DNA from: Methanolobus sp. ZRKC5
GTDB taxonomy: Archaea > Halobacteriota > Methanosarcinia > Methanosarcinales > Methanosarcinaceae
DNA length: 64,000 bases
Assembly (NCBI RefSeq): GCF_038446525.1
Contig: NZ_CP151792.1
Span: forward strand, 1,364,001 to 1,428,000
Direction of reading: 5' to 3'
The stretch's first letter is position 1; each line of letters opens with the position of its first letter. Under the pieces are notes generated by a model. The model saw only the letters and a program-made list of their open reading frames with translations. It was not told the origin of the DNA and did no database searches. Below, one piece after another: positions 39,629 to 43,741 of this stretch. The translations under genes and the position numbers were made by a program.

Positions 39629-39661
39629 TATCTGGTTGTTAGTATTTTTGTGTTTGTATTG
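39629..39661 (-). promoter_or_regulatory. Shared mutL/mutS upstream element (mutL copy)
   Basis: 33 bp that match the mutS upstream region at 31 of 33 positions. The core on the plus strand is TTGTTAGTATTTTTGTGTTT. It lies 47-79 nt before the mutL ATG; on the coding strand it contains ACAAAAATACTA, a plausible B-recognition/TATA region. Confidence 0.6.
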
Positions 39662-39789
39662 CCAGAATTGGTAAAATCAGGCATGATATTGGCCCATATG
39701 CACACGAGTAATTGAAAATAAGTAAAATTGAGTGACAATACACTTATATCGATTCATGCTTTTAGAGGCAACATTAAATTAGAAGGTTC

Positions 39790-40974
39790 ATGATGAATAA
39801 TCCTGAAAAACTAAAAAATATTGTACCCTTACTAGCTCTTTTGACAGCTTTTCCGGCATTTTCCACAGACATGATACTGCCTGCTATTCCATCTCTTGCC
39901 CTGATGTGGAACGAGCCACTGGCAGTTGTCAATTTAATCCTCATTTGTTTTTTCGTCACTTACGGATTCTTCCTGCTTTTCTACGGCCCGATCTCAGACA
40001 GGTACGGCCGCCGAAAACCATTGATAATCGGTATTTCATTGTACATATTGGCCAGCGTGCTCTGCGCCATGGCGACCAGTGCAACCTCATTGATAGCATT
40101 TCGTATACTACAAGCTGCAGGAGCTGCGGCCAGTTCATCATTATCCATGGCCATGACCAAAGATCTCTTTTCAGGGACTCAAAGGCAAAGGATACTTGCA
40201 TATATAGCCATAATCATGGCGCTGGCTCCTATGTTTGCCCCCATTGTGGGAGGATGGATACTAACATACCTTACATGGAACTGGATATTCATTGCCCAGG
40301 GATTAATGGGAGCCATAGGCCTTTTGGGTGTCCTCAGAACACCGGAAACTTTAAAAGAAGTGTCAGAAACCCCTCTGTCAAAGATCATGTCTTCTTATGG
40401 CAATCTGTTACTGAACAAAAATTATGTCATCCTGGTTCTGGTGATGTCTGTGAGCCTTTTACCATTATACAGTTTCATTGCTGGCTCTTCAGCCCTTTAT
40501 ATCAACGGATTTGGCCTGAGTGAACAAAATTTCAGCTACTTCTTTGCCTTTAACGCCCTGGCACTGATGGCAGGATCAATGTCATGCCTGAAACTGACAG
40601 ACAGAATAAACCCCAGACACCTGATAACCACTGGTTTTGCAGGAATAACATTAGGAGCTGCACTTATTCTTATAATTGGTCAGCGCGGACCATGGAGCTT
40701 TGCAATTCCTATGGCACTGGTAACATATTCCATAGGTATCAGCAGACCTCCGAGCAACCACCTCGTACTTGAACAGGTACACAAAGATGCAGGTTCTGCA
40801 TCATCTTTACTGATATTCACCTATTTCACACTTGGAGCTGTAGGCATGTGGCTGGTCTCACTGGATTGGATGGAACGCATGCAGATATTGGGAAGCATCA
40901 CTTTGGTCTGTGGTGTTCTTGTGCTGATTGCCTGGATGATATTACAAAAGAAAGGTATTGGTGCAGAGCAATAG
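39790..40974 (+). CDS. MFS transporter, Bcr/CflA drug-efflux type
   Basis: 394 residues with about twelve membrane helices. FPAFSTDMILPAIPSL is the N-terminal motif D1 of the Bcr/CflA group, FYGPISDRYGRRKPL is motif A, and FAPIVGGWILTYL is motif C of antiporters. It probably exports a toxic compound or drug. It lies between mutL and mutS on the opposite strand, so it may be a later insertion into a mut cluster. ATG 39790 is used; 39793 is equally possible. Confidence 0.85.
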   Translation: MMNNPEKLKNIVPLLALLTAFPAFSTDMILPAIPSLALMWNEPLAVVNLILICFFVTYGFFLLFYGPISDRYGRRKPLIIGISLYILASVLCAMATSATSLIAFRILQAAGAAASSSLSMAMTKDLFSGTQRQRILAYIAIIMALAPMFAPIVGGWILTYLTWNWIFIAQGLMGAIGLLGVLRTPETLKEVSETPLSKIMSSYGNLLLNKNYVILVLVMSVSLLPLYSFIAGSSALYINGFGLSEQNFSYFFAFNALALMAGSMSCLKLTDRINPRHLITTGFAGITLGAALILIIGQRGPWSFAIPMALVTYSIGISRPPSNHLVLEQVHKDAGSASSLLIFTYFTLGAVGMWLVSLDWMERMQILGSITLVCGVLVLIAWMILQKKGIGAEQ

Positions 40975-40988
40975 AATATAAATAAAAT

Positions 40989-41018
40989 AGCGAATGAGCG
41001 CAAATGCACTCTTTCGCT
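40989..41018. terminator. Bidirectional hairpin between MFS gene and mutS
   Basis: Stem AGCGAA/TTCGCT continued by GAG/CTC with single mismatches around a GCAAATGC loop. It lies 14 nt after the MFS stop and touches the mutS stop codon, so it can serve both convergent genes. Confidence 0.5.
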
Positions 41019-43678
41019 TATTTATCCTCTTCAAGAAGTTTGCTCTTTAGTTGACTGAGCCTGTTGAGTGCCTCAAGTGGTGTTATTGAATTCAGATCCA
41101 TATCCTTTAATTCTCCAATTACAGGATGAGAAGCAGTTTCACCAGATGAGGATTCCTGATCGAACAGTATCACCTGTGTATATTTGGCACTACTGCGTGG
41201 CTTCTTCCTGCTCTTGCAGTCATCCTCAGTAATAACACACTCATTCTCGATGTCCTCGAGAATCTCCTTTGCCCGTGTGGTGACTGCATGCGGAACACCT
41301 GCAATCCTTGCAACATGGATACCATAACTTCTGTCCGTTGCACCCGGAACGATCTTGCGCAGGAAAACAAGGTCATCACCATCTTCTTTTACAGCGATAT
41401 GGTAATTCCTGACGCGTTTAAGGCTGCCTGCAATATCCGTGAGCTGATGGTAGTGAGTGGCAAACAGTGACCTTACACCCACACGTCCTTTGTTGTGGAT
41501 GTACTCCACCACCGCCTTTGCGATACTATAACCATCATAAGTGCTGGTACCTCTGCCAATCTCATCCAGCAACACCAGGCTTTTCGGGGTTGCATTGTTC
41601 AGGATATTGGCAAGCTCCACCATTTCAACCATGAAAGTACTCTGCCCGCTTGCAAGATCATCGAAAGCTCCGACCCTTGTGAACACTCTGTCCACAATGC
41701 CGATAGAGGCATGAGAAGCAGGCACAAAGGAACCAGCCTGCGCCATTATGACTATCATGGCTATCTGTCTCATGTATGTGGATTTACCGGCCATGTTCGG
41801 TCCGGTTATAAGCTGGAACTGGTTCTCACTACAATCCATTTCCGTATCGTTGGGCACAAAACCGCCTGGAACTGTATTTTCCACCACACAGTGCCTTCCA
41901 TCTCTGATAAGAAGCCTGCAATCTGGAGTTATCGCGGGTCTTACGTAATTATTATTGGCAGCTACTTCGGCAAGGTTCGCCAGTACATCCAGCATGCCAA
42001 TGAAGCCAGCTGTTTCCTGTAACTGCTTTGAATGCGCTGCAACAGTCGAGTTTACATCGCATAGCAACTCATATTCAAGGGCTGTCATCTTCTCGTCAGC
42101 AGAAAGAATGGCACTTTCACGCTCCTTGAGTTCAGGAGTGTAGAAACGCTCGGCATTGGTCATGGTCTGCTTCCTGATATAATCATCAGGGACCTGGGAG
42201 ATGTTGGCTTTTGTAACCTCAAGATAATAACCGAAGACTTTGTTGTAGCCAACTTTCATGGACTTGATACCTGTCCTTTCACGCTCCTTCTGCTGGAACT
42301 TCGCAATCCACTGTTTGCCGTTCTTTGACAGATCGAACAGCTCATCCAGCTGCTCATTGTATTCCGGTTTGATCATTCCCCCATCCCGCACACTAAGTGG
42401 AGGTTCTTCTACAATGGCTCTGTCAATCAGTTTAGCAAGGTCGTCCAGCTCCCCAAAAGAAGACAGCTGAGATACAAGGTTCACCAACAGGTCCACACCT
42501 TCACATTCACGAAGGGATTCAAGTAAAAGAGGAACTGATTCAAGTGACTTTTTCAAAGCTACAAGATCCCTTGCGTTTGAATTACCATACATCACCCTGC
42601 CTACAAGTCGCTCCATATCCTTTACATAGGAAAGGTGGGAACGGATATCAAAACGAACGAGAGTATTTTCCTGAAGCCATGCAACCGAATCCAGACGATC
42701 ATTTATAGCATCAACTGAAATAAGCGGCTTAAGAAGCCATTTCTGGAGCTGCCTTCTTCCCATAGGTGTTTTTGTATCATCAAGAACCCCGATAAGCGAA
42801 GAGTCATTGCCCTCGCCCCGCACATTCCTGACAATTTCAAGGTTCCTCAAAGTGATAGCATCCAACACCATGAACTCTGAATCAAAATATGTCTTGAGGG
42901 ACTGCACCTGCGATAATTCCCTCATCTGGGTATCCATTGCATAACGCAATGCTGCACCTGCAGAAGATACTGCACATGGGAGTTCACTACAACCCATGCC
43001 TTCCAGAGTTGTTACTTTGAAGTGTTCCCTGAGCACTTTTTCAGCCCTGTCGAAGTCAAAAGCATCCTCATCAAAATCATGAACGATTATCCTCAGTTCC
43101 TTCATTCGATCGGTGAGATGTGAATCCTCAAGCAAGGACCGTGGCATGATACATTCCGAGGGACCCATACGTGCAGCTTCACTGATAATTCGATTATAAG
43201 GAGCGATGTCTGTGAACTGCGTTGTAAGGAATTCACCTGTAGAAATATCCAAAAAAGAGATACCAAATTCATCCTTTTCTCCATATATCGCCATTAGATA
43301 ATTATTAGAGGAATCCGAGAACATGGAAGAATCCATTGCAGTTCCTGGCGTTACAACTCTTACGACTCCTCTTTTCACAACACCTTTCGCTTTCTTGGGG
43401 TCCTCAAGCTGCTCACAGAGTGCTACCTTGTATCCTTTTTTGATAAGCCGGGGAAGATAAGTATCAAGAGCATGGTATGGAATACCTGCCAGTGGCATCT
43501 TCTCCCCATCCTTACTCTTCCCCCGGCTAGTGAGAGTTATCTCCAACTCTTTTGCAATGGTCTTCGCGTCCTCTCCGAAGGACTCATAGAAGTCCCCCAT
43601 CCTGAAGAATATGAGGGCGTCTTTATGCTCTTCCTTGGCAGCATAGAACTGCTGCATGGCAGGGGTTACTTTACTCAT
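41018..43678 (-). CDS. mutS: DNA mismatch repair protein MutS
   Basis: 886 residues of bacterial-type MutS1. The mismatch-reading motif GDFYE is at residues 28-32, Walker A GPNMAGKST and Walker B LVLLDEIGRGTSTYDG are in the C-terminal ATPase, and the ATHYHQLT switch follows. It recognises mismatches and recruits MutL. The same promoter-region element occurs before mutL, pointing to joint control. Confidence 0.95.
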   Translation of the reverse strand: MSKVTPAMQQFYAAKEEHKDALIFFRMGDFYESFGEDAKTIAKELEITLTSRGKSKDGEKMPLAGIPYHALDTYLPRLIKKGYKVALCEQLEDPKKAKGVVKRGVVRVVTPGTAMDSSMFSDSSNNYLMAIYGEKDEFGISFLDISTGEFLTTQFTDIAPYNRIISEAARMGPSECIMPRSLLEDSHLTDRMKELRIIVHDFDEDAFDFDRAEKVLREHFKVTTLEGMGCSELPCAVSSAGAALRYAMDTQMRELSQVQSLKTYFDSEFMVLDAITLRNLEIVRNVRGEGNDSSLIGVLDDTKTPMGRRQLQKWLLKPLISVDAINDRLDSVAWLQENTLVRFDIRSHLSYVKDMERLVGRVMYGNSNARDLVALKKSLESVPLLLESLRECEGVDLLVNLVSQLSSFGELDDLAKLIDRAIVEEPPLSVRDGGMIKPEYNEQLDELFDLSKNGKQWIAKFQQKERERTGIKSMKVGYNKVFGYYLEVTKANISQVPDDYIRKQTMTNAERFYTPELKERESAILSADEKMTALEYELLCDVNSTVAAHSKQLQETAGFIGMLDVLANLAEVAANNNYVRPAITPDCRLLIRDGRHCVVENTVPGGFVPNDTEMDCSENQFQLITGPNMAGKSTYMRQIAMIVIMAQAGSFVPASHASIGIVDRVFTRVGAFDDLASGQSTFMVEMVELANILNNATPKSLVLLDEIGRGTSTYDGYSIAKAVVEYIHNKGRVGVRSLFATHYHQLTDIAGSLKRVRNYHIAVKEDGDDLVFLRKIVPGATDRSYGIHVARIAGVPHAVTTRAKEILEDIENECVITEDDCKSRKKPRSSAKYTQVILFDQESSSGETASHPVIGELKDMDLNSITPLEALNRLSQLKSKLLEEDK

Positions 43679-43708
43679 GATAGTTCACACAAAATTGATT
43701 CTCCAAAT

Positions 43709-43741
43709 TATCTGCTTGTTAGTATTTTTGTGTTTGCATTG
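43709..43741 (-). promoter_or_regulatory. Shared mutL/mutS upstream element (mutS copy)
   Basis: Second copy of the 33-bp element, 31-63 nt before the mutS ATG. It differs from the mutL copy at two positions (G/C and T/C); the flanks do not match beyond two bases. Confidence 0.6.

Follow-up and report, generated by a model that had tools for sequence, protein, structure and literature searches.

A conserved element of about 35 bp is probably the core promoter of mutS, originally the sole promoter of a mutS-mutL operon, and would have been copied to mutL after that operon had been split; this reading comes from comparison of sequences. The element occurs twice in the window, i.e., the whole stretch of 64,000 nucleotides of Methanolobus sp. 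ZRKC5 analyzed here. The sequence-only reading had noted a 31/33-bp repeat in the same orientation before mutL and mutS, and direct comparison bears this out. The segments 39629-39661 and 43709-43741 differ at two positions (G/C at 39635/43715 and T/C at 39657/43737), and extension to 39625-39661 and 43705-43741 gives 34 of 37 identical bases, three of the four bases added on the left agreeing and an additional A/T mismatch lying at the left end of the plus strand. Since the minus strand encodes mutL as well as mutS, the element stands upstream of each in the same sense; read 5′ to 3′ in the sense of the genes, it is CAATRCAAACACAAAAATACTAACAASCAGATARTTT. The putative mutS (ancestral mutSL) core promoter, element P (43705..43741, minus strand), has its AAAAATACTAAC core 39 to 50 bp before the mutS ATG, and the copy before mutL, element P′ (39625..39661, minus strand), has it 55 to 66 bp from the mutL ATG. 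Within the 37-bp element this core is flanked by ATGCAAAC and CAGATA.

A chance match is excluded: with up to three mismatches allowed, a 21-base core was found twice in the window, both times without mismatch, against 0.02 expected. In the whole 3.05-Mb genome, a 32-mer with up to three mismatches matched these two sites only. Furthermore, a 39-position profile made from 21 relatives recovered the same two sites (E values of 3e-12 and 5e-11), the next match having an E value of 0.09; thus, neither search found a copy at an unrelated site. Across 186 genomes of the order, the profile was essentially confined to the regions before mutS or mutL. A dispersed repeat or mobile element was rejected on these grounds. 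Six genomes of another family in this order (g25) have weaker matches just before mutS, of the form ATGCAAAAACAAAAATAGGAATAAATGAATATC, with the core about 30 to 40 bp from the ATG. Individually these matches are weak (E values of 0.002 to 0.009), but as all six lie in the same gene context, chance is unlikely. Two other profile matches were discarded, one because it sits inside a coding frame (G118) and the other because it matches in part (19 positions) and does not precede mutS (G117). A search at class level gave no further occurrences. Separately, one genome carries two copies of the element about 4.8 kb apart, each preceding the start of a mutS gene or a mutS fragment (L204, G068:C70:4300-10000).

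Comparison of the upstream regions of relatives revealed that the element is strongly conserved before mutS and, in the split-gene clade, before mutL as well. The mutS gene is present in 111 of the 112 genomes of the family, and 89 mutS upstream regions were compared. The element precedes mutS in 25 of the 26 genomes of the window's genus (g1, whose named relatives are Methanolobus) and in members of g2, g3, g7, g10, and g11. Among the same 89 regions it is missing before mutS in g13, g5, g6, g9, g12, g14, and most g10, and in three g7 genomes just its downstream half is left. The distance from AAAATA to the mutS ATG is 49 to 54 bp in most genera and 32 bp in g11; to the mutL ATG it is about 66 to 118 bp. 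In one g1 genome, a second MutS-like protein (G053:C19:789-3434) is 44% identical to the window's MutS over the full length.

How unusual this conservation is was judged across the genus from the mean pairwise identity of the best 33 columns in each 120-bp upstream region, with 8 to 18 genomes for each gene. The comparison excludes G058, whose mutS upstream region was replaced, and upstream regions overlapping coding sequence do not lend themselves to it. The values were 0.92 for mutS, 0.91 for cbiD, 0.70 for the gene of the major facilitator superfamily (MFS), 0.69 for cbiQ, 0.66 for cbiM, and 0.62 for a macroglobulin-like gene; with two outgroup genera added, mutS retained 0.89 and cbiD 0.81. 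By this measure, the mutS element stands at the upper end of the local values, though not alone. Because the cbiD upstream region is about equally conserved in the genus, high conservation by itself is not unique to the mutS element. The 44-bp mutL-cbiD intergenic sequence at 37643-37686 of the window (GGAGTCGGTAGATTTTAAAAGTATTAATTACAATTG) shows conservation in the genus about equal to that of the mutS element.

In other genera and in five g1 genomes, mutL directly follows mutS, at a gap of 13 to 46 bp in the adjacent-gene genomes inspected, and the element occurs once, before mutS. In 20 g1 genomes, the two genes are separated by an antisense MFS gene, which belongs to one family throughout. 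In the window, this transporter gene (39790..40974, plus strand) separates mutS (41018..43678, minus strand; 886 aa, Pfam MutS domains I-V) from mutL (37687..39582, minus strand; 631 aa, Pfam HATPase, DNA_mis_repair, and MutL_C). A hairpin at 40989..41018, where mutS and the MFS gene converge with their 3′ ends, is a likely terminator according to its predicted fold (−18.2 kcal/mol, z of −5.0 on the mutS strand), and a hairpin stands at the same place in the two relatives tested. Given this position, transcription from the mutS promoter probably does not reach mutL. The MFS gene, which would have entered antisense in the Methanolobus lineage, and the hairpin behind mutS may together have isolated mutL from that promoter.

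Two clades differ in what precedes mutL. Clade A, 14 genomes including the window, has the MFS gene between the two genes and a second copy of the element before mutL. Clade B comprises six MFS-split genomes and G044, from which the MFS gene has been lost; before mutL these carry a different conserved sequence with no relation to the element, AAGGAAAAGTATGTGTATTYCCTGATAC, roughly CAAGGAAAAGTATGTGTATTYCCTGATAC (G040, G044, G047, G050, G052, G056, and G064; L053 and L055-L060). The sequence immediately before the MFS start is similar in both clades, an indication of a single insertion and later losses; independent insertions are less likely but conceivable. In the MutS tree, the clade A genomes form one group, except that two genomes with adjacent genes fall inside it (93/89 support); the mutL copy would accordingly require a gain plus a loss, or else two separate gains. 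The idea of a tandem duplication that carried along an MFS-promoter unit found no support, the MFS gene being elsewhere in the other genera checked. We envision, for one clade, that a short copy of the mutS promoter was placed before mutL and now may drive it.

The two copies seem to have descended separately. The mutL copies are alike among themselves at 29.8 of 33 positions and the mutS copies at 29.5, and a mutS copy resembles the mutL copy of its own genome hardly better (28.7 of 33) than the mutL copies of other genomes (28.2 of 33). No concerted evolution of the copies is seen, and the values fit a copy made long ago, with the two sites then evolving independently under constraint. It could be argued that both copies converged independently on a strong promoter consensus, as the invariant core is A-rich and promoter-like. 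We hold such convergence to be very improbable: the clade A mutL copies match the mutS copies at 24 to 32 of 33 bp, peripheral bases included; no other genomic site comes near the profile; the sampled basal clade A genomes already have the full-length copy; and no intermediate mutL promoters with the TATA core only were seen. The constraint also appears to track adjacency to the gene. In G058, about 1.1 kb of inserted DNA, which has on the opposite strand an open reading frame (ORF) containing collagen-like GPQG repeats (L201, G058:C1:332200-334800), lies between the old element and mutS, and the element, displaced by 1.1 kb, is altered at positions invariant elsewhere (AAAATGCTGACAACCAGGTAA), a decay from which we draw this link.

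Several properties argue for a core promoter. The distance to the start codon is short and nearly constant and has room for a transcription start 20 to 30 bp downstream, and in g11 and g25 the core lies only about 30 to 40 bp from the ATG, leaving little room for another promoter downstream. The sequence upstream of the element is not conserved. The element itself has a direction and no dyad, which is what a BRE/TATA region should show. In Methanolobus psychrophilus R15, genome-wide dRNA-seq is reported to place predicted BRE/TATA elements about 19 to 22 nt from the transcription start in 81.6% of primary transcripts, and about 16% of the mRNAs are reported as leaderless (PMC5378194); with these figures as that source gives them, both spacings of the element fit. 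The tight spacing, the unconserved upstream sequence, and the M. psychrophilus data together make a core promoter the best reading. The middle of the element, ACAAAAATACTAAC, would be an atypical BRE and TATA box, and the downstream AGATA part an initiation-proximal region, with transcription predicted to start about 20 to 30 bp downstream of the TATA-like part. As a TATA box, ATACTAAC is weak and AAAAATACTAAC is only TATA-like, and some clade A mutL upstream regions have a second TATA-like stretch (ATAAATATACTT) closer to the mutL ATG. De novo motif discovery in 30 upstream regions of the window returned a G+C-rich motif and no BRE/TATA. Since no local consensus was derived, it is position and the literature, rather than a scored match, that support the BRE/TATA assignment; a sigma-70 promoter scan was uninformative, the host being archaeal. 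In the literature we found no description of a mutS or mutL promoter in methanogens.

The element might instead function at the RNA level, whether by forming a leader structure or by encoding a short upstream ORF. A six-codon frame, ATG CAA ACA CAA AAA TAC TAA (MQTQKY*), is indeed legible in many genomes, but several copies no longer have its start codon (ATA in G000 mutL, ACG in G039 mutL, and ATC in G033 and G038), a 1-base insertion breaks the frame in G039, G046, G059, G060, and G061, there is no fold beyond that of shuffled sequences, and Rfam gives no match. We therefore rejected the RNA structure, Rfam family, and short-ORF readings, and consider action in RNA barely credible.

The promoter reading, to which we return, is supplemented and not excluded by another, in which a regulator dedicated to mismatch repair has an operator that overlaps the core promoter, mutS and mutL forming a two-promoter regulon. 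The conserved stretch is longer than basal factors usually require; conservation over about 33 bp reaches across genera and, weakly, families, the element is specific to mutS and mutL among the 186 genomes, and the same bases are kept in both copies despite separate evolution. Against this stand the lack of half-sites for a dimeric regulator (no dyad or direct repeat above shuffles in the element), the other sequence that clade B carries at mutL after the same split, the several genera of the family without the element at mutS, and the fact that no regulator gene was identified. Such an operator is possible, although we doubt it. The sequence-only reading had offered a shared operator or a duplicated promoter; the specific and conserved copy supports the latter well, and the missing dyad and clade B speak against the former. 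Its further proposal, that the element keeps mismatch repair in step, was not borne out, as sharing the element is evidently not obligatory after the split. Thus, coordination of mutS and mutL through a shared operator, judged from sequence, is possible but unproven, and similar expression of the two genes would be expected if both copies act as the same promoter. It is rather unlikely, but conceivable, that a dedicated transcription factor or a variant basal factor recognizes this one promoter, that its regulon comprises mutS and mutL only, and that selection for this control made mutL reacquire a copy after the split.

The locus would thus constitute a natural experiment in the repair of a split operon, in which one insertion met two promoter solutions in sister clades and a displaced promoter decayed in one lineage (G058). 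It may be a clean case of promoter capture following operon splitting, with unusually strong conservation, and it suggests that the promoter of archaeal mismatch repair is under exceptional constraint. With one 37-bp DNA, the existence of a dedicated regulator can be tested.

Compared with the archaeal core promoter of the BRE/TATA (TBP/TFB) type, the element is alike in position, directionality, its A-rich BRE- and TATA-like core, and the absence of a dyad. In contrast, its TATA is unusual, and its conservation is stronger and longer than that of most neighboring upstream regions. The mutS-mutL operons with one upstream promoter in the other Methanosarcinaceae genera examined comprise the same genes, and several share the element before mutS; in the window, however, the antisense MFS gene splits the operon and a separate copy precedes mutL. 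The mutL upstream region of clade B Methanolobus belongs to the same gene, follows the same MFS insertion, and is likewise conserved in its clade, whereas its sequence is unrelated to that of the window.
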